Assembly: GCA_020831585.1 (NCBI GenBank)
Contig: JAFIGE010000008.1
Coordinates: 1 to 63,217 of the forward strand
Reading direction: 5' to 3'
Origin: Opitutales bacterium
GTDB taxonomy: Bacteria; Verrucomicrobiota; Verrucomicrobiia; Opitutales; Oceanipulchritudinaceae
DNA: 63,217 bases
Each line of letters begins with the position of its first letter. Position 1 is the first letter of the stretch. Under the pieces are notes generated by a model, which did not search any database, was not told the DNA's origin, and was given only the letters and a program-made list of their open reading frames with translations. Positions 43,319 to 61,701 of this stretch are shown one piece after another. A program made the position numbers and the translations under genes.

Positions 43319-44164
43319 TCAGATCAAGGACAGGTGCCGGAACAACGTGGCTTTGTCCGCAAAGGGAGGGTGCTCCCGCAGATGATGCCGAATCTTTGCT
43401 TCAATATCCGTCCGCAGCATTTGGTCCTCCGTCGTATCGGCAGCCCAATGGCGACCGGGATGAAGGGTATCCCAGGGAGAGCGTTTGTTCGCCCGGGTCG
43501 TTGCCCGATCACCATGTTTACCCAAACCGAAACAGATCTTCGTCTGCTTGTTCCAGATCGGACGGAACAACCGGATCATAAAATCCTCCACGGCCATTTG
43601 CATACCCGATTGAATGGGGGATGCGCGGTAGCGGAAGTCTTCCAAGCGCAAATCGGTCTTCGCAATGTTCTTGGCATGCTCCCGTAGGCGCGAATAGAGG
43701 GCCACGCCTTGTTCCTCGGTTGATTCAGCCTGCGGGTTTTTCGGATCGGCCTTTCCCACGTAAAGAGGCGTTTCGCTGCCGGAAAGCGGCTGGTAAACGG
43801 GCATGCCCCCGCCAACAAAATAAACCGCATAGACGCCCGATCCGTAGAAAGGACAGGTCTCCAACTCCACGAGCGGCCGCATTTCCTGATTGCAGAAGCT
43901 AAAGGCAAAGAAGCGGGCAATGCTATCGGAGCGACCGAGCGTGATACCCAGGCTCCCGATGGAGACCGCCGAAAAGGTTTCCCGGAAGGACCGCAATGCT
44001 TCCACCAGTTCGCCCGCAGAGGAAACGGCTTTTTGAACGGCTGGGGAAGTTCGGTTGGTTTCCGCGTGCTTCTCCCGAACTGTTCGGCTCAGTAGGCGGT
44101 TCAGCTCCTTTATCTGCCGCTCTATGCCTTGAAAGGAAGGATGCGGTTGATCGGAGCCGCTCAT
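43319..44164 (-). CDS. Eco29kI-family GIY-YIG type II restriction endonuclease
   Basis: A 281-residue protein. A GIY-YIG nuclease core is visible: CPFYGSGVYAVYFVGG with, downstream, ETPLYVGKADP (the YIG strand), followed by the ALYSRLREHAKNIAKT helix with a catalytic Arg and an AVEDFMIRLFRPIWNKQTKIC block with the conserved Glu. The C-terminal GKHGDRATTRANKRSPWDTLHPGR is typical of Eco29kI/Cfr42I-type enzymes, which cut CCGCGG. The start ATG overlaps the methyltransferase stop (ATGA), so expression follows the methylase. CCGCGG occurs in this window (e.g. 8430-8435, 38182-38187). Confidence 0.88.
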   Translation of the reverse strand: MSGSDQPHPSFQGIERQIKELNRLLSRTVREKHAETNRTSPAVQKAVSSAGELVEALRSFRETFSAVSIGSLGITLGRSDSIARFFAFSFCNQEMRPLVELETCPFYGSGVYAVYFVGGGMPVYQPLSGSETPLYVGKADPKNPQAESTEEQGVALYSRLREHAKNIAKTDLRLEDFRYRASPIQSGMQMAVEDFMIRLFRPIWNKQTKICFGLGKHGDRATTRANKRSPWDTLHPGRHWAADTTEDQMLRTDIEAKIRHHLREHPPFADKATLFRHLSLI

Positions 44165-45354
44165 CGAAGAGATGTGGCCGAGGCTACGTGTTTGCCAACG
44201 CATCGGCGGCGAAATTGGGCCGTCTGGAGACGGGCTGCAATAGAGCGGCCGACCGCCTCCGCAAGTTTGACCGGGACGGCATTGCCCAGTTGGCGCATGC
44301 TCTCCGTCCAGGAACCGGAAAAACAAAAGTTGTCCGGAAAGGTCTGGATGCGTGCCGACTCGCGCACAGTGAAATACCGCACCTGGCCATCGGCATGGCG
44401 GAGCATGTTTTCTCCCCCGGGGACACCATGGTCGCCCGCCTTGAGCGCCTTCGCGGGCTCATCCAGGGGGCTGCCGGTGTGGCCGGGATAGCTGCGTGCG
44501 CCCGGCTGGAAAACATGATTCGTTTCCGGCGAGGATGCCTCGCGCGGATCGGGGAGCCCGCTCAGCGCATCCCGCACGGTCCGCCACCGCGCCGTCGGGC
44601 GGAGGAGTTCGCCCGTGGCCAGGCGCGACAGCCGACGCGCCATCGAACCCGGAGGCTCATCGGGGGATAGGCCGAATTCACGCCAATAATCCCCCGAGAC
44701 ATACTTTGCCACAAGCAGGTCGTCCTGCGTGTGCGTGGCGGGTGGAAAAGACCAGCCCACGTCGAGGTCGTTGCGAAAACCGACAAAAAACACGCGGTGG
44801 CGGCGCTGCGGCACCCCGTAATTGGCCGCATCCGCCAAATGAACCATGACCGCGTAGCTCGCGCCTGCTTCATCGCGCGCTGACGAATGAAAGCGCTGCA
44901 AGCGACGCAGGTTCGTCGTCCAATCAACATTTTGGGAAACGGGAAAGGTCGGATGGGCGAGTTGCAGGCGGATATACTCAACGTAGTTTGCAAAAGCCGA
45001 GCGCAGAAGCCCCCGCACATTTTCAAAGAGGAAGGCGGGCGGGAGCAACTCCCGCACGGCACGGACCGCCTGGGGGAACATATCGCGCGTGTCCTCGTAA
45101 CCCCGCGCCTTTCCACCCATGGAGAAGGGCTGGCAGGGAGGTCCGCCCGCGACCAGATCCACCGGGCCTACCCCCGGAAAATCAACATCCCGCACATCCC
45201 CCTCGACCACCGTCCATTCGGGGCGGTTCAGGCGCAGCGTCCCACAGGCATCGGCATTGCGCTCGTAGAGAGCCACGGAAGCAAACCCGGCCCGCTCCAG
45301 ACCGAGAGCCATCCCTCCCGCTCCCGCAAACAGCTCAATTGAACGCATGATCAC
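44161..45354 (-). CDS. DNA (cytosine-5-)-methyltransferase of the Eco29kI-like system
   Basis: A 397-residue C5 methylase with all key motifs: I (IELFAGAGGMALGLERAGF), IV (VAGGPPCQPFS, catalytic Cys74), VI (FLFENVRGLL, Glu111), VIII (NYGVPQRRHRVFFVGFRN) and the C-terminal IX/X (ESARIQTFPDNF; RQLGNAVPVKLAEAV). A variable target-recognition region lies between VIII and IX. It protects host DNA from the cognate endonuclease encoded downstream. First of a two-gene operon. Starts ATG 45354 or ATG 45348. The pair appears complete and could be active. Confidence 0.95.
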   Translation of the reverse strand: MIMRSIELFAGAGGMALGLERAGFASVALYERNADACGTLRLNRPEWTVVEGDVRDVDFPGVGPVDLVAGGPPCQPFSMGGKARGYEDTRDMFPQAVRAVRELLPPAFLFENVRGLLRSAFANYVEYIRLQLAHPTFPVSQNVDWTTNLRRLQRFHSSARDEAGASYAVMVHLADAANYGVPQRRHRVFFVGFRNDLDVGWSFPPATHTQDDLLVAKYVSGDYWREFGLSPDEPPGSMARRLSRLATGELLRPTARWRTVRDALSGLPDPREASSPETNHVFQPGARSYPGHTGSPLDEPAKALKAGDHGVPGGENMLRHADGQVRYFTVRESARIQTFPDNFCFSGSWTESMRQLGNAVPVKLAEAVGRSIAARLQTAQFRRRCVGKHVASATSLR

Positions 45355-50322: not shown

Positions 50323-50634
50323 AAGGCTACCTTGACCCGCCTCGCCTTACCTGTCAATGACTTCGTAAAGTGATCCTTCGGCTCCGCGCTTGATGCACAG
50401 TGCGGGAATTTTGTTGTATTTCCGGACTTCGGCGAGCTCAGTCGAGGCGCTTTAGCCGGTCCCGCTGCCCATCGTTCGCGCCCACCCGCCGGGACCGCAT
50501 AAATGCGGGACTCCAACGCTTACAAGCCGCCGAGGCAGACCCCGCACTTTTAATCACACCGTTCGGCTTCCTCCAGATGCTCCGCGTCCACTGGCGCGGG
50601 TGGAAATTGGCCTGATTTCCGCTGAACCGCGTCC
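50323..50634. other. Intergenic region with a possible gene remnant
   Basis: On the minus strand (about 50440 to 50346) a frame ends ELAEVRKYNKIPALCIKRGA and EGSLYEVIDR then stop. It looks like the C-terminus of a real but unidentified protein; no upstream part was found. Otherwise nothing recognised. Confidence 0.35.
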
Positions 50635-51549
50635 GTGGAATACGGCACCCTGATTTTGATGACCTCGCTATTGGGCGACAGCCTCGCGCTCGGCGGGCAC
50701 TGGCTCTACAACCAAGACGAGATCGCCGCCCAGATCGGGCCTGAGCTGCGCTTGAGCGCCCCGCTCTCGCGCTACCATCCCGGAAAGGGACCGGGTGATC
50801 ACACCCACTACGGAGACCAAACCCTCATCCTCCTCGAGAGCGTGGTCTCCCAGGGAACTTTTGACCCGGAGGATTTCCTCCAAAGTTGGCGAGCCTACTG
50901 GGCTGATCCCGACACGCTCAGCTACCGCGATGGTGCCACCCGCACAACCCTCGCGAATCTCGCTCAGGGAACGGCCCCGTCTGAGGCGGGGTCGGCCTCC
51001 TCCGACATCGCCGGGGCGGCCCGCATCGGTCCCTTGTTTCTCCTTGAATGGGAGAATGCGGACGCCCTCGCCAAGGCTGCCCGCGCTCAAACCGCGCTCA
51101 CCCACAACCATGCGGCGGTGATGGAGGCAGCGGATTTCTTCGCCCGGGTCACCCTCAAGGTGGCCGACGGTATGCCCGTGCCCACCGCATTGGCCACCGT
51201 TGCCGACGAGGGCGCATGGGAAACCTTGTCCCCTTGGTGGGACGCTGCCCGCGCCTCCGCTGCTGACACCGGTCTCGGCGATACGGAGGCGGCCCTGCAT
51301 CATGGCCAAAGTTGTGCTGTTGACGGGGCCTTCCCTCTCATCTGCCACCTCTTGCTCCGCTATCCCGACGATGCCATTGCCGGATGGTCCGCCAACCAAA
51401 TGGCCGGAGGGGATACTGCCGCCCGCGCTCTCCTCATGGGGCTGGTCTATGGAGCGCGACCGGACGCGCCGCCCCTCCCCGCCGACTGGCTCACCACCTG
51501 GACCGCCCGCCCTCAGGTCGAAGCCGCTGCCCGCGCCCTGGCGAACTGA
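50635..51549 (+). CDS. ADP-ribosylglycohydrolase family protein
   Basis: A 304-residue helical protein, GTG start. LLGDSLALGGHWLYNQDEI is the N-terminal metal-site helix (GD-x-LA-x-G). HYGDQTLILLESVV is the next metal-binding element, and NQMAGGDTAARALLMGLVYGA corresponds to the C-terminal G-G-D-T-x-x-x-A block. The family removes ADP-ribose from proteins or nucleic acids, or acts on related substrates. In defence-rich regions such enzymes may counteract ADP-ribosylating toxins. A copy of its last ~20 codons plus downstream bases is found at 53090-53180. Confidence 0.85.
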   Translation: MEYGTLILMTSLLGDSLALGGHWLYNQDEIAAQIGPELRLSAPLSRYHPGKGPGDHTHYGDQTLILLESVVSQGTFDPEDFLQSWRAYWADPDTLSYRDGATRTTLANLAQGTAPSEAGSASSDIAGAARIGPLFLLEWENADALAKAARAQTALTHNHAAVMEAADFFARVTLKVADGMPVPTALATVADEGAWETLSPWWDAARASAADTGLGDTEAALHHGQSCAVDGAFPLICHLLLRYPDDAIAGWSANQMAGGDTAARALLMGLVYGARPDAPPLPADWLTTWTARPQVEAAARALAN

Positions 51550-51684
51550 GGAGGGCTTTGGCTCTCTCTCTGGCTCGGCAGTCAAGTAAATTATACCAGA
51601 AAAAATCTTTGGCTAAAGGGGCACGAAACAGTGGATTGCAAAAGCCTTTTGATTTCTATCACTGGAGGTTTGTTGTTACCCGAA

Positions 51685-52506
51685 ATGGAAATCATTTCCG
51701 TGATTGTGTCCTGCTTCAATAACTGGCGGACGGTGCAGCTGACGCTGTTTTCGCTGGAGGTACAGACGGATCGCTGCTTTCAGGTAACTCTGGCGGACGA
51801 CGGCTCCAACGAAGCCTTCCGCCGGGAAGTTGAGCAGTTTCGGGCGACGACCGTCCTGCCCATCGAACATGTCTGGCATCCGGACCAGGGTTTCCGAAAA
51901 GCGTCTATTCTCAACAAGGCGTTATGGGGGGCAAAGTGCCGATATCTGTTGTTCACCGATGGAGATATCGTCCTGCGGGCAGACTGGGTTTTCCAGCACC
52001 GGTTGGCCGCCCGGCGAAATACGTTCATGGCAGGCGGGAGCCATATCAATATTCCAAAGGACCTGCAACAGCGCATTACCCGTTCAGAAATCCAACAACA
52101 GTGTTTGTTTGATTATCGGTGGCTTTCCGATAATGGCGTATCATCGGCCCGGCGCATTCGGCTTCGGCTGGGCACTTATGGGTGGAGAGCCCGATTGCTG
52201 GACGCCTTGACCGCGTGTCGCGACAGCTTTGTGGGCTGCAGTACAGGTTGCTGGAAAGAAGATGTCGAGCGGGTGGGCGGCTTTGATGAAACGTTTGGCT
52301 ACGGCGGGGAAGACCGCGATCTCGGCATCCGATTGGCAAACGCCGGGGTTCGTGGCGTTCGTAAAAGGTATAGCTTCGCCTGCGTGCACATGGATCACTC
52401 CCGCCCATACAGCGATCCGGTGGAAGTAGCGCGTTGCAAGGCACTGTTGAAGGAGAGACGGCGGCGGGGAATCACCCACCTCGCCCGGAAACCGGAGGCA
52501 TCATGA
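51685..52506 (+). CDS. Family 2 glycosyltransferase with galactosyltransferase-like C-terminal motif
   Basis: A 273-residue protein from ATG 51685 (MEIISVIVSCFNNWRTVQLT). The GT-A fold is shown by IISVIVSCFNNW at the N-terminus, CRYLLFTDGDIVLRADWV (DxD-type metal site) at about residue 90, and YGGEDRDLGIRLANAGVRG (GT7-type ED motif) near residue 215. It is a soluble cytosolic transferase, usually for polysaccharide chain extension. It is isolated here between an ADP-ribosylglycohydrolase and methylase debris, with no other polysaccharide genes close by. Confidence 0.88.
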   Translation: MEIISVIVSCFNNWRTVQLTLFSLEVQTDRCFQVTLADDGSNEAFRREVEQFRATTVLPIEHVWHPDQGFRKASILNKALWGAKCRYLLFTDGDIVLRADWVFQHRLAARRNTFMAGGSHINIPKDLQQRITRSEIQQQCLFDYRWLSDNGVSSARRIRLRLGTYGWRARLLDALTACRDSFVGCSTGCWKEDVERVGGFDETFGYGGEDRDLGIRLANAGVRGVRKRYSFACVHMDHSRPYSDPVEVARCKALLKERRRRGITHLARKPEAS

Positions 52507-52901
52507 CCGTCTATTCGTTTCATTTTCCCGGGCTTGATTGCCCCTGGACCAGCAAGCGGACGATGGCGCGGCGAAATCAGCCGTCTGCGCGAAGCTCACC
52601 CAACCGAGCCCGCGACAAACTGAACGGCCTGCACCCAAACAACTTATGACCCGGCATGTTCTATTGTGAGGCGGATGAAATCTGTCGTGCCGGCAATGAA
52701 GACCGCCCAAAAGGCGGCACTCCCGTCGAGACGGGCAGTCCAAAGCTGGATGACCAAGCTGACTGGTGCCGTCGGAAAGATGTGTCAACGGCACCCTGAC
52801 TCCGTTCCTATCGTATTCGCTAATTTTGGCTCGGGTGTTGTGCTCTTTGCGAAAAGCCCTCGGCTTGACGGAGTTCAGTGCTGCGGACAACTTGAGAAAC
52901 T
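52507..52901. other. Non-coding stretch preceding methylase stub 1
   Basis: No gene supported. The last ~80 bases resemble the region before stub 2 (54520-54605), including CTCTTTnCGnAAAnCC and CGGCTTGACGGAGT, so the duplicated segment begins upstream of the stub start codon. Confidence 0.5.
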
Positions 52902-53090
52902 ATGGAACTGGCTTCATTAGAATTGTGCGCCGGTGCAGGAGGCCAGGCAATCGGATTGGAACGCGCGGGCTTCGCGTGTGCCGCAGCGGTCGAGTTGGAT
53001 CACCATGCCTGCGCGACCTTGCGCGCGAATCGCCCTCATTGGGAGATTCTTGAGCAGGATGTGCGCGATCTGGATGGAAGGGCCTTCCGG
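52902..53090 (+). pseudogene. 5' stub of a C5 DNA methyltransferase, copy 1
   Basis: ATG 52902 opens MELASLELCAGAGGQAIGLER, with AGFACAAAVELDHHACATLR and WEILEQDVRDLDGRAFR: motif I, the acidic loop and motif III of a cytosine-5 methylase. The sequence stops matching after ~62 codons and joins DNA derived from the end of the ADP-ribosylglycohydrolase gene. The catalytic PPCQ and all later motifs are absent, so it is non-functional. Confidence 0.85.
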
Positions 53091-53180
53091 CTGGCTCACC
53101 AACTGGACCGCCCGCCCACAGGTCGAAGGCGCTGCCCGCGCGCTGGCAAACTGAGGAGGGGTTTGGCCCTGGGTGCCCCC
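53090..53180 (+). pseudogene. 3'-end fragment of the ADP-ribosylglycohydrolase gene
   Basis: GGCTCACCAACTGGACCGCC and onward reproduces 51489-51560 with a handful of substitutions, including the TGA stop and the following AGGAGGGnTTTGGC. It encodes WTARPQV.GAARALAN in the frame of the original gene but is fused to a methylase stub in a different frame. Confidence 0.88.
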
Positions 53181-53581
53181 TCGCCGGTTCCTCCGCGAGA
53201 AATGCCTGTTGCTAAAGTGTAGTTGGGTCGGCCTTGGCCCCCAACACCAGTTTGATGGCCTGTTCATCCGCATCCAGCGAGGTTTTCGAAGGCTGTTACT
53301 GGCCAGTGGGCTGCCTGTACGAGTCAGCCCCCATCCCTATTGCCGCTAGCTCCGGCATGGCGGTCAGTTAGTTATGATCACGCAGTGGTTGGCCCAATTT
53401 TCCAGGCTACTGTTTTTTACAAAAATCATTAAATTCAAGCGCAGACCCTTCTGAGCATGACTGTAATCAAGCACGATATTTCTCCCGTGCTGTTCTAATA
53501 TAGAACACGAACTCCACCAAAATCAGTTATGTTACGTGAATGGAGTCAGGTGATCCTGAAAGGCGTGAATATCGTGGATCG
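53181..53581. other. Intergenic region before the XRE-HNH pair
   Basis: No gene supported. AT-rich stretches around 53395-53530 (e.g. CTGTTCTAATATAGAACACG near 53490, with inverted GTTCTA/TAGAAC arms) may be the promoter/operator for the XRE regulator. Confidence 0.45.
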
Positions 53582-53806
53582 ATGAACATTGTCGGCGGGC
53601 GTGTGAGGCTGGCCCGGCGCCAACTAAAGCCGCCATTGACACAAGACCAATTATCCGGACGCCTTGCCGGACATCGCGTTTCATTAGACCGCGCCGCCAT
53701 AGCAAAAATTGAATTAGGCCTTCGCCGGGTGACTGATTTTGAGACCGTGGCCCTAGCTCAGGTCTTGAAAGTCGATGTGACTTGGCTCCTTGGGATTCAC
53801 TCATGA
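53582..53806 (+). CDS. XRE-family helix-turn-helix regulator (C-protein-like)
   Basis: A 74-residue single-domain HTH protein. Residues from ATG 53582 (MNIVGGRVRLARRQL) lead into LTQDQLSGRLAGHRVSLDRAA, IAKIELGLRRVTDFETVALA and VLKVDVTWLLG, a complete lambda-repressor-like fold. The size and its position immediately before a nuclease gene, with a 4-base ATGA overlap, resemble controller (C) proteins of restriction-modification systems, which delay endonuclease expression. A TTCTA..TAGAA palindrome ~90 bases upstream is a candidate binding site. Confidence 0.8.
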   Translation: MNIVGGRVRLARRQLKPPLTQDQLSGRLAGHRVSLDRAAIAKIELGLRRVTDFETVALAQVLKVDVTWLLGIHS

Positions 53807-54486
53807 GTTTCGATCCCGGTTTGCTTTTGAGAAAGGCGACTGCCCGCGCGAAATCGGATGTCGCCAACAAAATGGTCTCGATGCTCCTGCATGAGCTGAG
53901 TCGTTTTATTTGTCTGGAGACGAAGTTTTTTATCAAAAGCCCTCCCTACATTGAGCTGACAATAGATTTCTTCGGGACTTTGTGCCCATATTGTCGGAGG
54001 GAACTCATTAAAGGCCAGTGCGTTGTCGAGCACCTTGAAGGTATGAATCGATACCGCGCGGGCCTGCACACACCCGGAAATGTTCTTGTCTCCTGCTCAG
54101 AATGTAATCGTGAGAAACGCCGGGACGACCAACGAAAAGACCTTCGGCTGGCACCGACGGGGTGGGGTTCATTCCTTCGACATGACGGTATACTGTGCAG
54201 CTCAATGGCTTGCAAATCTTGTGCCTATTGGGCAGGGTTATTTCCATCGTTCGTCGACAGGGCTGACCACCTCGCCAACGCCCGAAGGCGAATTCAATCC
54301 TTTCACGAAACTGAAGAAATCCGGCAAGTGATGCTTTTTTCGGAGCCCCTTCGATGTTCAGCAAAGAGTCTCCTAGAGGACTTTTATACGAATGCGCAGA
54401 ATGACGCTCGGGAGAGAGTATTCAACGCGCTGAGGGCCTTGCAGGCGAACGAGGGAAGCGGGCAGTGTAAGGAGCTGGATAAGTAG
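53803..54486 (+). CDS. HNH-family endonuclease, possible restriction enzyme
   Basis: A 227-residue protein. A zinc-bound HNH module is centred at residues ~65-115: CPYCRRELIKGQCVVEHLEG (first Cys pair and catalytic His), LHTPGNVLVSCSECNREKRR (second Cys pair and the conserved Asn). An N-terminal helical region (residues 1-60) and a C-terminal region with another Cys set (CSSMACKSCAYW) would give target binding. It is translationally coupled to an XRE regulator, which suggests a C-R arrangement, but no intact methylase is adjacent (only a stub lies on either side). A stand-alone or orphan nuclease is also possible. Confidence 0.75.
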   Translation: MSFDPGLLLRKATARAKSDVANKMVSMLLHELSRFICLETKFFIKSPPYIELTIDFFGTLCPYCRRELIKGQCVVEHLEGMNRYRAGLHTPGNVLVSCSECNREKRRDDQRKDLRLAPTGWGSFLRHDGILCSSMACKSCAYWAGLFPSFVDRADHLANARRRIQSFHETEEIRQVMLFSEPLRCSAKSLLEDFYTNAQNDARERVFNALRALQANEGSGQCKELDK

Positions 54487-54618
54487 ATGATGTTGGGTTC
54501 TCCGCGCGCTTGTAGGCTCTCTTTTGCGCCATAATCGGCGAAGATTGAGCGGATAAGCGCTCTTTACGGAAAACCATCGGCTTGACGGAGTGCAGAATTG
54601 CGGACAACTTGAGAAAGC

Positions 54619-54810
54619 ATGGAGTTTGCATCAGCACAATTGCCTGCGGGTGCAGGAGGCCCGGCAATCGGATTGGAACGCGCCGGCTTTGATCGCGCTG
54701 CAACAAAGGTTGAATTGGATCGCCGCGCCTGCCCAACCATACTCGTAAACCACCCCCGATGGCAGATTCTTGAGCAGGATGTGCGCGATCTGAATGGAAG
54801 GGCCTTCCGG
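54619..54810 (+). pseudogene. 5' stub of a C5 DNA methyltransferase, copy 2
   Basis: ATG 54619 opens MEFASAQLPAGAGGPAIGLE, with AGFDRAATKVELDRRACPT and WQILEQDVRDLNGRAFR, clearly the same protein start as stub 1 but already degenerate (C8 to P in motif I). It diverges at the same codon (GRAF) as stub 1. The upstream ~80 bases are also shared. It lies directly in front of the NgoMIV-like restriction gene, where the cognate methylase would be expected. Confidence 0.85.
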
Positions 54811-54848
54811 GGAGTGGATTTGTATGTCTTCGAAAGTGCCCCTTCTCC

Positions 54849-55709
54849 ATGAACGCCTCCGCCTTCGCCCACCTTCGTGCCAGCTTTTTTGAAAGCCTCC
54901 TGGATTCGGTTTTGACGACCGACAGCAACGGCATCCCCAGCATCGCGGATCGAAACCAGAAATCGAGTATCGCCATCTCACAGGGCATCGTTCGCCGACT
55001 CGGCGAGATCCAAATGGCGACAAAAGTTGCCGGGCAGATTTCCGGAAACTCATTTGAAACCAACTGCCTGGAATTCATTGAAAAAGCCTTTGGCCTGCTC
55101 TCTCATCTGCGGCCCGGGAATTGGGGAATCGAACGGGTGACGAATCCTCGCTCTGATGGCGTTGCCCGCTTCGAACAATATGCCCACCTGACCGCGCTGA
55201 AGAGACTGGCAAAAGTCGATGCCGATTTGGCCGCCTCCCTCGGCAATGATTATGCCGTTCTGCCCGATATTCTCCTCTTCCGCTGGCCCGAAGAAGACGC
55301 GGACATCAACCGGCACTCACCCCTTGTCGATGAATCGTTAGCCCGGCAAACGGGCCTGCGCCGGATAAACAACCCCCTTCCTCTCATCCACGCCAGTGTA
55401 TCCTGCAAGTGGACACTCCGCAGTGACCGCGCGCAAAACGCGCGTTCCGAAGCCCTTCATCTTATCCGCAACCGCAAAGGGGGGTGTCCGCACATTCTTT
55501 TTGTCACGGCCGAGCCGTCCCCCAGTCGGCTTTCTCCGCTGGCCCTTGGAACGGGCGACATTGATTGCGTCTATCACGTTGCTCTCCCCGAGTTGATCGA
55601 GAGCGTCCGTGAAATCGATAATGATGAGGCCCTTGCTATGCTCATGATGATGGTCGAGGGCAAACGCCTCAAGGATCTCACCGACCTTCCGCTGGACCTT
55701 GCCGTATAG
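54849..55709 (+). CDS. NgoMIV-family type II restriction endonuclease
   Basis: A 286-residue protein, the same length as NgoMIV. The known NgoMIV active-site residues fall at identical positions: E70 (GNSFE), D140 (YAVLPDILLF) and S185-C186-K187 (ASVSCKWTLRS), followed by DRAQNARSEALHLIRNRKGG. NgoMIV is a tetrameric enzyme that cuts GCCGGC in two copies. The gene appears intact with no frameshift. The cognate methylase is reduced to a 62-codon stub, although GCCGGC is present in the window (e.g. 6670-6675, 6799-6804). Protection must come from elsewhere or the enzyme is unexpressed or inactive. Confidence 0.92.
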   Translation: MNASAFAHLRASFFESLLDSVLTTDSNGIPSIADRNQKSSIAISQGIVRRLGEIQMATKVAGQISGNSFETNCLEFIEKAFGLLSHLRPGNWGIERVTNPRSDGVARFEQYAHLTALKRLAKVDADLAASLGNDYAVLPDILLFRWPEEDADINRHSPLVDESLARQTGLRRINNPLPLIHASVSCKWTLRSDRAQNARSEALHLIRNRKGGCPHILFVTAEPSPSRLSPLALGTGDIDCVYHVALPELIESVREIDNDEALAMLMMMVEGKRLKDLTDLPLDLAV

Positions 55710-56549
55710 ACCCCTCGCCTCGTTTAAGCAATTTTGGCCAAGTATTAAATTTACCACTCGGGCACAAGCCACCCGGCAATCAGTGAACTCCAAAACGGCT
55801 CATCTCATTTTTCCAGGGGGAAAAAGACATAATCCAGCACGGCGGTCCGGCCCGCACGGAGGGCGGTGCGGCGGGAGGCTACATTCAATCGATCAATGGT
55901 GCCGATGAACAGGCGGTTGCGCTCGCGGTGGGGCCGGTGGGCCCAAGCCCTCTGCGCGGAAGCAGCGAAGCCATGACCATTGAAAGCAGACAAGACCACC
56001 TCTTCGATCACCTCGCCCCGAACAACCGATTCGCGAGCACCCCTTGAAACGCCAGAGATGACCAGTCCGATGGATTCACGACAAAATTTGCGTGGAATCC
56101 GGTCGCTTGGTCAACCCATCATCCGCGACGCTACCTGACCCGAGGTGCGGGATTTCGACTACCGCGAGGCTCCATTGGCGCGGTTAAGTTGCTCGCTCGC
56201 CGGAGCCGCGTTCTTCAGACGCGGTTTGCGAGGGCCGCTTGCCGGGTTTGCGGCGGTAAAGGATTCCTTTTGCTCCGTTTTTCCAGCGGAGCTGGCCTGT
56301 TCTGAGAGGGTGGGAAAGGCGGCGGAGGGGGAATCCTCCGCGCAGGTGGACGAAGGCGGCGGGCAGCGGGACCGCCTAAAGGCGGGACTTGTCCAACAAG
56401 TCACTTGCTTAACGGAGCGCCATTGGGGCGCAAGCCCTCCGCTCCGAAGCTGGGCTTTCGTCCGGGATGTTGTGTTGAGCTTAACTGGTTGGAGTTGTGA
56501 CAGCGCAAAAGGCTTTGCATGGATCGGACAGATTGCTAGATTTTGGCGT
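55710..56549. other. Non-coding stretch with gene debris
   Basis: No supported gene. The minus strand near 55805-56030 ends a frame reading RNRLFIGTIDRLNVASRRTA then LDYVFFPLEK, possibly the tail of an unknown protein. Bases 56126-56165 resemble 57715-57753 of the metallopeptidase-like gene (CGCTACCTGACC...GAGGTGCGGGA) with an extra C, another partial copy. Confidence 0.4.
56126..56165 (+). pseudogene. Fragment copied from the HExxH protein gene
   Basis: CGCTACCTGACCCGAGGTGC and the following GGGATTTCGACTACC match the 3' part of the gene at 57309-57812 (codons for RYLTEVRDFGY), with one inserted C and a few substitutions. Confidence 0.6.
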
Positions 56550-60129: not shown

Positions 60130-60309
60130 ATGGAATCAACGGTGCGGAAGGCTATTTGAGTGAACCCTGTCGGCCCCCTTCGGCAATTGGCCACTTTCAC
60201 GAGTCATGCAGATCGCAACGCGTGGCCCTTGAGCGACGTCAATATATTTTACCACACAAATCTATTTTGGGACACCGCATCCTTGCACTCCCGGACGTTC
60301 GCACAAAAG

Positions 60310-61701
60310 ATGGCGTCCATGTCTCCGGAATCCACCTTTGCCCATACCGGCAGCGACCCGCTGACCGGGGAGCTTTCTTCAGATTCTTTCCGTGCGTTCA
60401 TCAAGGGATTCGACCGGTTCGGCAAGGAGAGCGTGGAGACTTTTACCGCTCTTGGAAACGGGGAGCGTGTGCCGGTCTACGTGAACGAATACTGGACGGC
60501 CCGCCAAAGACAGGGCCACTCGCTGCACGAGGTTTCCTACCGTGCCTGCTTCAAACCACAGCTGCCCCGGTTCTTCATTGAGCTTCTCACGCGCCCCGGG
60601 GACACCGTGTATGACCCGTTTATGGGCCGCGGCACTACGCTGTTGGAGGCGGCTTTGTGCGGTAGGCGACCCGTCGGGAACGACATCAATCCCCTCGCGC
60701 AGCGGCTGCTTCGTCCGCGCTTGCAACCGCCTCTTCTGGAAGTCGTGGAGGAACGGCTCCGCGGGATACCCTGGCAGTGCGCGGAAGAGGAACCGCTCGA
60801 CGAGGATCTCCTCGTTTTCTTTCACCCGGAAACATTGCGGCAAATCCTCTCCCTGCGGCGCTACCTGGAGAATCAAGAGGAAGCGGGGGCGTCGGATGCG
60901 GTGGATGATTGGATACGAATGGTGGCAACCAATCGCCTCACGGGGCACTCACCTGGTTTTTTCTCCGTCTACACGCTTCCTCCCAATCAGGCGGTTCGCC
61001 CCAATCGGCAGCGGCTGATCAATGAGAAAAGGAAGCAAACGCCTCCGCCACGGGATGTAACCAGCATCATCCTGAAGAAGAGTCGCCAACTCCTGGGTGA
61101 CCTCACGCCGGAGGAGCGTGCCACCCTCAAGGAGGTCAGCGCCGACGCGATCCTCCTGACCGGTTCGGCAGACGCGACAAAGCCTTTGGCGACGGACTCG
61201 GTGGACCTTCTCGTGACCTCGCCACCTTTTCTCAAGGTGATCGATTACGAGACCGACAATTGGATGCGCAGTTGGTTTAACGGTATTGATCCGAAAGGCG
61301 TCCATCTGTGGCAGGCAGGCAAACTCCACAAATGGGAGGAACTGATGGCGCGCGCCTTTGCGGAGTTTTTCCGTATCTTGAAACCGGGTGCCTGGATTGC
61401 CTTTGAGGTCGGGGAGGTTTCCAAGGGAAAAGTGAATTTGGACGAAGCGGTCCTGCCGGTGGCAAAGGCCGCCGGTTTGACCCCCGTGTGCACACTCATC
61501 AACCAGCAAGACTTCACCAAGACCGCCAACTGTTGGGGCGTGGACAATCAAAGCAAGGGCACAAACACCAACCGGATCGTGGTTGCCCGCAAGCCGGGGG
61601 CTTCTCCGGGAAAGACGCTTCCGGCACCCCGCATCCTCCGCCAGACCGCAAAACCTCCAACAACCCGGACACCCACTCAAATCAACCTCAACTTCGACTG
61701 A
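60310..61701 (+). CDS. DNA N4-cytosine/N6-adenine methyltransferase
   Basis: A 463-residue protein from ATG 60310 (GTG 60160 and ATG 60319 also possible). The SAM-binding motif TVYDPFMGRGTTLLEAALCG (F-M-G-x-G) is followed, far downstream, by the catalytic LLVTSPPFLKVIDYE (S-P-P-F, typical of N4-cytosine class) and IAFEVGEVSKGKVNLDE. Order I then IV indicates the beta-like permutation seen in type II and orphan methylases. A ~200-residue insertion between them is probably the target-recognition domain. No dedicated endonuclease is adjacent. It lies 180 bases after the truncated helicase-nuclease, which could be the remains of a linked defence system. Confidence 0.85.
   Translation: MASMSPESTFAHTGSDPLTGELSSDSFRAFIKGFDRFGKESVETFTALGNGERVPVYVNEYWTARQRQGHSLHEVSYRACFKPQLPRFFIELLTRPGDTVYDPFMGRGTTLLEAALCGRRPVGNDINPLAQRLLRPRLQPPLLEVVEERLRGIPWQCAEEEPLDEDLLVFFHPETLRQILSLRRYLENQEEAGASDAVDDWIRMVATNRLTGHSPGFFSVYTLPPNQAVRPNRQRLINEKRKQTPPPRDVTSIILKKSRQLLGDLTPEERATLKEVSADAILLTGSADATKPLATDSVDLLVTSPPFLKVIDYETDNWMRSWFNGIDPKGVHLWQAGKLHKWEELMARAFAEFFRILKPGAWIAFEVGEVSKGKVNLDEAVLPVAKAAGLTPVCTLINQQDFTKTANCWGVDNQSKGTNTNRIVVARKPGASPGKTLPAPRILRQTAKPPTTRTPTQINLNFD

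Follow-up and report, generated by a model that had tools for sequence, protein, structure and literature searches.

A putative NgoMIV-family restriction endonuclease gene accompanied by two truncated methylase copies in an Opitutales bacterium

RESULTS

A full-length restriction endonuclease gene of the NgoMIV family

The analyzed window, a stretch of 63,217 nucleotides, is contig C83 of a 5.28-Mb assembly of an Opitutales bacterium (262 contigs, completeness 98.5%). A gene for a full-length Type II restriction endonuclease (REase) of the NgoMIV family, with the predicted cleavage site G^CCGGC, is located on its plus strand at positions 54849 to 55709. The open reading frame comprises 286 codons without a stop or frameshift. 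Its product matched PF09015 (NgoMIV_restric) in a Pfam search with 342.6 bits (cut-off 23.2, E value of 2e-102) over positions 8 to 275 of the 275 positions of the profile, and a phmmer comparison with the NgoMIV structure 1FIU yielded an E value of 8.2e-90 over positions 5 to 286 of the 286-residue chain.

All 11 residues checked in NgoMIV numbering were kept, namely, Q63, E70, D140, S185, C186, K187, R191, D193, R194, E201, and R227. The active-site set E70, D140, K187, and E201, with S185 and C186, occurred at the same numbers, and the set for recognition of GCCGGC, consisting of Q63, R191-S192-D193-R194, and R227, was also present. S185, C186, and K187 are taken here to be active-site residues of NgoMIV, and R227 presumably is one of its residues for GCCGGC recognition. 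The residues E70, D140, E201, Q63, and S192 are named in passages of PMC4652773 and PMC6344858, with the recognition residues Q63 and S192 in PMC4652773. The alignment and the open 286-codon frame bear out the initial annotation of this DNA, which had claimed NgoMIV catalytic residues at identical positions and no frameshift.

When invariance was defined on 16 other members of the family, 71 of the 76 invariant positions were kept, and the five departures were H14F, L180I, S230P, F244V, and I277L. The other 16 rows of the alignment departed at none or one of these positions in 15 cases and at five in the remaining row, L010, a locus that has an intact methylase. The region 54849 to 55709 thus encodes an apparently intact NgoMIV-family REase, the activity of which is predicted. 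No promoter was recognized upstream of the gene, and no relatives of the REase were confirmed in viral contigs. An AlphaFold model of the protein was poor, with a mean pLDDT of 55.8, and no weight was placed on it.

Two remnants of the cognate methylase

No intact cognate methylase adjoins the REase gene. Its place is taken on the plus strand by stub 2 at 54619 to 54852, which contains the first 68 codons of an NgoMIV-type C5 methylase, from the ATG at 54619 through the GVDL motif at 54822, according to the alignment to NgoMIV-associated methylases, followed by nine codons without homology to these enzymes. The methylase stub of about 62 codons that had been described for this site does exist, albeit with a longer homologous part. 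PF00145 gave only 22.3 bits on stub 2. Its TGA overlaps the ATG of the REase gene (ATGA), and the same overlap joins the intact methylase and REase genes in the loci L010, L011, and L018, so that an internal, in-frame deletion within the methylase gene is the simplest reading of how stub 2 may have arisen; the correct frame across such a deletion would be obtained by chance alone in one of three cases. An assembly gap at 54810 to 54849, which would have offered another explanation for the truncation, was not seen, since the assembled sequence contains no N or gap there.

A second remnant, stub 1, was overlooked in the initial annotation. It is positioned 1.7 kb upstream of stub 2 at 52902 to 53090 (plus strand) and represents, in well-conserved form, codons 1 to 63 of another copy of this methylase (45 bits with PF00145). 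The two stubs display 80% DNA identity over 252 columns, including a 60-bp leader in front of each of them, at 52842 to 52901 for stub 1 and 54559 to 54618 for stub 2, which differ at 10 of 60 positions. Stub 1 stops at a CCGG, where it is fused to an 84-bp duplicate of the 3'-terminal part of an ADP-ribosylglycohydrolase gene (duplicate at 53087 to 53170, plus strand), which is identical in 76 of 84 positions to 51482 to 51565 at the end of the ADP-ribosylglycohydrolase gene at 50635 to 51549. Both stubs stop within 12 bp of each other, and their final 47 bp differ at a single base, compared to about 20% overall; this near-identity may stem from local gene conversion, among other possible causes. 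A tandem duplication of the 1.6-kb unit from 51482 to 53090 is a possible origin of stub 1. It fits the junction, but the interiors, a glycosyltransferase gene versus the two-gene module described below, share nothing at a blastn word size of 7.

Between the stubs, two overlapping genes on the plus strand form a module composed of an XRE-type helix-turn-helix (HTH) gene at 53540 to 53806 (PF12844/PF13560, below the cut-off) and a gene for an HNH-like nuclease with a CxxC...CxxC pattern at 53782 to 54486, which had weak PtuB matches in PADLOC. The same pair occurs in a member of the class, genome G212 (L140, 1441 to 2402), with 43% identity of the HNH nucleases. A function of the module at 53540 to 54486 as the REase of stub 1 was not supported: in the G212 stretch examined, the pair is without a C5 methylase, and the nuclease of the module bears no resemblance to the HNH nuclease beside the methylase of G389 (see below).

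Other methylases of the window and the genome

A search of the assembly with PF00145 gave seven matches, all of which could be assigned. The stubs accounted for two of them, an intact gene at 44161 to 45354 (minus strand) was matched in two pieces, and the other three were single genes on the contigs C241, C201, and C43. The gene on C241 is located at the contig edge, and that on C201 has its own REase-like neighbor, as judged by likeness to a plasmid-borne pair. A full NgoMIV-type methylase as the query yielded nine pieces, all at the same places as PF00145. The search for a GCCGGC-specific C5 methylase elsewhere in the genome, which had been proposed with the initial annotation, thus revealed no remainder of an NgoMIV-type methylase in the assembly by either query.

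The intact gene at 44161 to 45354 (TIGR00675) is part of a separate, intact Eco29kI-type restriction-modification (R-M) pair at 43319 to 45354 on the minus strand, with the REase gene at 43319 to 44326 (PF09517, E value of 1.7e-32). This methylase was discarded as a protector of GCCGGC, because a PF09517 REase already forms its partner and because its site, presumably CCGCGG, would not cover GCCGGC. The genome also encodes several N6/N4-type methylases, one of them in the window at 60160 to 61701 (plus strand, PF01555), which is a candidate protector. Strong orthologues of this enzyme, with over 50% identity, were found in about 20 of the 387 genomes of the phylum that were searched.

Methylase partners of related endonucleases

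The upstream side of the REase gene was examined in 21 other loci with a full or nearly full-length NgoMIV-family REase, composed of 10 genome contigs, 6 loci from the phylum, and 5 of 16 plasmid records. Outside this count were G096, with a broken REase and an intact methylase, G159, with the REase cut by contig ends, G125, with a 64-residue remnant, G384, with a match below the cut-off, and the other 11 plasmid records. In 18 of the 21 loci, the gene directly upstream of the REase encoded an intact NgoMIV-type C5 methylase, and another methylase resided beside the REase in two. In Sulfobacillus (L017, 2640 to 4858), this partner is of the N6_N4 type, and on a Mycobacterium plasmid (L072, 3007 to 5751), it is a different C5 methylase, accompanied by a Vsr gene. 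These pairings indicate that methylase partners have been exchanged in the NgoMIV REase family.

The remaining locus, L013 of Mangrovicoccus ximenensis, contained only the last 66 residues of the methylase, and the first 276 residues were found 438 kb away in the opposite orientation. The split gene occupies 256790 to 256987 on the plus strand (L013) and 694728 to 695555 on the minus strand (L068) of its contig C1. M. ximenensis would thus be a second case in which an NgoMIV-family REase lacks a complete methylase; the split looks like the result of an inversion within the methylase gene or of a misassembly.

Among 89 genomes searched with PF09015, a full REase was present only in the bacterium studied here, and G438 contained a fragment of 33 positions. 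An NgoMIV-type methylase was sought in 55 genomes, this one and relatives, and six of them matched at an E value of ≤1e-30. G119 and G389, both of the same family, contained a full-length gene and G398 a broken one; the remaining three matches, including the Eco29kI-type gene of this genome, covered only about the first 130 residues. In G389 (L166, 878 to 2430), an HNH nuclease gene follows the methylase gene within a few bases, in place of an NgoMIV REase. In the tree, stubs 1 and 2 were sisters (support 99/97), and the pair joined the methylases of G119 and G398 from the same family (support 95/91), with end branches of 0 for stub 1 and 0.68 for stub 2. The nearest relatives of the stubs are these methylases from genomes without the REase; the lineage thus once possessed this methylase, and one half of the system was retained by some members, the other half by others.

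Probable order of methylase loss

Evaluation of the substitutions in the two stubs needs to consider that only 63 codons with few sites were available and that parsimony undercounts changes at such a divergence. Under these limits, one amino acid change was assigned to stub 1 and 13 or 14 to stub 2 with G119 or G398 as the outgroup, respectively (binomial P values of 0.002 and 0.001). The nucleotide changes in stub 2 were distributed over the three codon positions as 7/7/5 (G119) and 7/8/8 (G398). Those of stub 1 were mostly at the third position, 1/1/7 (G119) and 1/0/4 (G398); this contrast was significant with G119 (P = 0.017) but not with G398 (P = 0.13). Residues invariant in the methylases were kept in 14 of 20 cases in stub 2 and in 16 of 19 in stub 1, and three of the six losses in stub 2 were common to stub 1. 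Stub 2 seems to have decayed like neutral DNA, and the pattern of stub 1 resembles that of a sequence under selection. The dN/dS ratio across the whole divergence of the stubs was about 0.24 to 0.30, which indicates that selection acted for a long time on at least one of them.

Drift of the REase gene was simulated at the rate of stub 2, 0.115 per site, derived from 14 to 15 changes at 126 first and second codon positions. None of 3,000 simulated genes remained open with five or fewer losses at invariant positions; this outcome was reached by 5% at 0.05 per site and by 30% at 0.03 per site. The REase appears to have been constrained during most of the time since the linked methylase died, which would have required protection from elsewhere. 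The most obvious source of such protection in trans would be the full-length parent of stub 1, on which selection apparently acted until a short time ago.

DISCUSSION

Proposed history of the locus

A cell that loses the methylase would be expected to die, and intact REases without a methylase are therefore a test of how R-M systems end. The initial annotation had interpreted the locus as an R-M system that lost its methylase partner. The intact REase, the missing remainder of an NgoMIV-type methylase, and the same-type methylase upstream of the REase in most of the other loci agree with this statement, but the loss was not a single one, because there were two methylase copies and the linked one decayed long ago. 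The two remnants of different decay age beside the REase give an order, first the linked copy and then the second one, with the REase conserved between these events.

The following course of events is proposed. The methylase gene would have been duplicated within an R-M locus of the NgoMIV kind. The REase-linked copy then may have become a pseudogene, with codon 69 to near the end lost by the in-frame deletion that kept the overlap of stop and start codons. Purifying selection would have continued to act on the second copy, 1.7 kb upstream, the product of which would have protected GCCGGC in trans, and this may have allowed the REase to remain under selection as well. A more recent deletion or rearrangement at a CCG(G) microhomology could then have joined codon 63 of this copy to the ADP-ribosylglycohydrolase tail, and this fusion would have eliminated the only cognate methylase still left. 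The cell would survive now because the REase is inactive in vivo, being either not expressed or weakened, for instance, by H14F, S230P, or F244V. This two-step loss of the methylase, the linked copy first and the trans-protecting copy later, with an REase now most likely inactive in vivo, is probable, albeit with considerable doubt. Several points count against it, namely, the few sites behind the comparison of rates, the nonsignificant contrast with G398, the dN/dS ratio across the divergence of the stubs, the three losses common to both stubs, and the lack of a recognized promoter upstream of the REase gene. In addition, the ADP-ribosylglycohydrolase tail at stub 1 differs from its neighbor at 8 of 84 positions, so that very recent copying is unlikely unless the source was a second, diverged gene. 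The proposed history predicts that the REase is still close to an active enzyme and that its present harmlessness has a cause that can be found.

GCCGGC sites and the present state of the endonuclease

GCCGGC sites are present in the window, as had been stated before, with 22 sites compared to 49.6 expected from shuffles. A genome sample of 731 kb contained 392 sites, about 0.54 per kb, and by extrapolation the whole genome would hold some 2,800. Avoidance of GCCGGC was rejected as a sign of recent REase activity: the ratio of observed to expected sites was 0.59 here (731 kb) and 0.62 in G119, which has no such REase. Across 12 genomes of the same family, this ratio scattered from 0.20 to 1.05 (samples of 18 to 397 kb each), so that the frequency of GCCGGC is uninformative with respect to cutting or methylation. 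In the same 731-kb sample, the most underrepresented 6-bp palindrome was GGCGCC (119 seen, 418 expected), and CTCGAG was second.

Most likely, the REase shows no activity in the cell at present, and the main rival to this view is protection by another methylase. An active REase with a genome protected by another methylase that covers GCCGGC, for instance, that of C43, that of C241, or that at 60160 to 61701, is possible but rather unlikely. Further C5 and several N6/N4-type methylases are indeed available in the genome, partnerships of NgoMIV-type REases with methylases of other families occur in Sulfobacillus and Mycobacterium, and the N6/N4-type methylase of the window is 28% identical to the Sulfobacillus enzyme over 345 columns. 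This methylase is common, however, in genomes without an NgoMIV REase, and that of C201 already has an REase-like neighbor of its own. The other C5 methylases are not close to NgoMIV-associated ones, with 34% identity as the best value (C241 versus L010), and they lack the TIVGGSxKHGG motif, which is a weak test since only 5 of 12 NgoMIV-associated methylases checked contain it.

An artefact of the assembly or of a strain mixture, by which an intact methylase was collapsed or left out, is improbable. Such an error would be in line with the 262 contigs and the completeness of 98.5%, with two related 250-bp stretches 1.7 kb apart that are nearly identical in the last 47 bp, and with the M. ximenensis methylase, which is likewise split over two distant places, possibly by a misassembly there. 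The stubs are 20% divergent, though, the two ADP-ribosylglycohydrolase tails show a difference of 10%, the intervening sequence is free of N, and a missing insert would not give the old decay of stub 2.

There is very little reason to regard the REase gene as a long-dead relic without selection since the loss of the linked methylase. The departure at 5 of 76 invariant positions, where 15 of the 16 other rows depart at none or one, would agree with such a relic, but the other row with five departures, L010, belongs to a locus with an intact methylase, and all checked catalytic and recognition residues were kept. Drift for as long as that of stub 2 is excluded by the simulation, and up to about 0.03 per site would still be compatible. 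Equally far-fetched would be a working GCCGGC REase under selection without a cognate methylase, with about 2,800 unprotected sites and held in check by expression control, the need for a partner, or repair, that is, an inducible DNA-degrading effector instead of half an R-M system.

Comparison with known systems

The NgoMIV R-M system (Type IIF, G^CCGGC; PDB 1FIU and 4ABT) resembles the system described here in the 286-amino-acid REase, with its full-length match, active-site residues, and R-S-D-R residues, and in the C5 type of the stubs, as found upstream of NgoMIV-family REases. It differs in that the methylase is represented here by two truncated copies and that the activity of the REase is a predicted one; of a member of this family, cleavage of GCCGGC by a tetramer acting on two sites would be expected. 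In the REase-less NgoMIV-type methylases of the same family, those of G119 (L167) and G398 (L168, broken), which are closest to the stubs, and that of G389, the half of the system that survived is the methylase, with no NgoMIV REase, whereas in the bacterium studied here it is the REase, with no methylase.

Solitary REases beside a corrupted methylase have already been described, and REases without a partner form a known class that has seen few tests. In the part of their study considered here, Ershova et al. (2012; PMC3488263) count 74 Type II REases as solitary, with a corrupted methylase close by in 11 of these cases, and give the same explanations for them as discussed above; on the basis of work with PaeR7I, it is stated there that deletion of the methylase need not kill. 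The system described here agrees with their class ii in the full-length REase, the corrupted methylase within 4 kb, and the intact orthologous systems elsewhere. That class also calls for a genome without any other candidate methylase, whereas further methylases are present here, so that the system is a putative member. It is unlike the cases in that part of the study in having two corrupted copies of different decay age, from which an order of loss can be inferred. The particular value of the system lies in this readable history of loss.

The R-M remnants are flanked by two stretches with dispersed repeat pieces, at 50388 to 50563 and about 56172 to 56428, which occur in dozens of copies in the genome (65 matches for a whole 7.8-kb query); parts of one stretch are inverted repeats of parts of the other.
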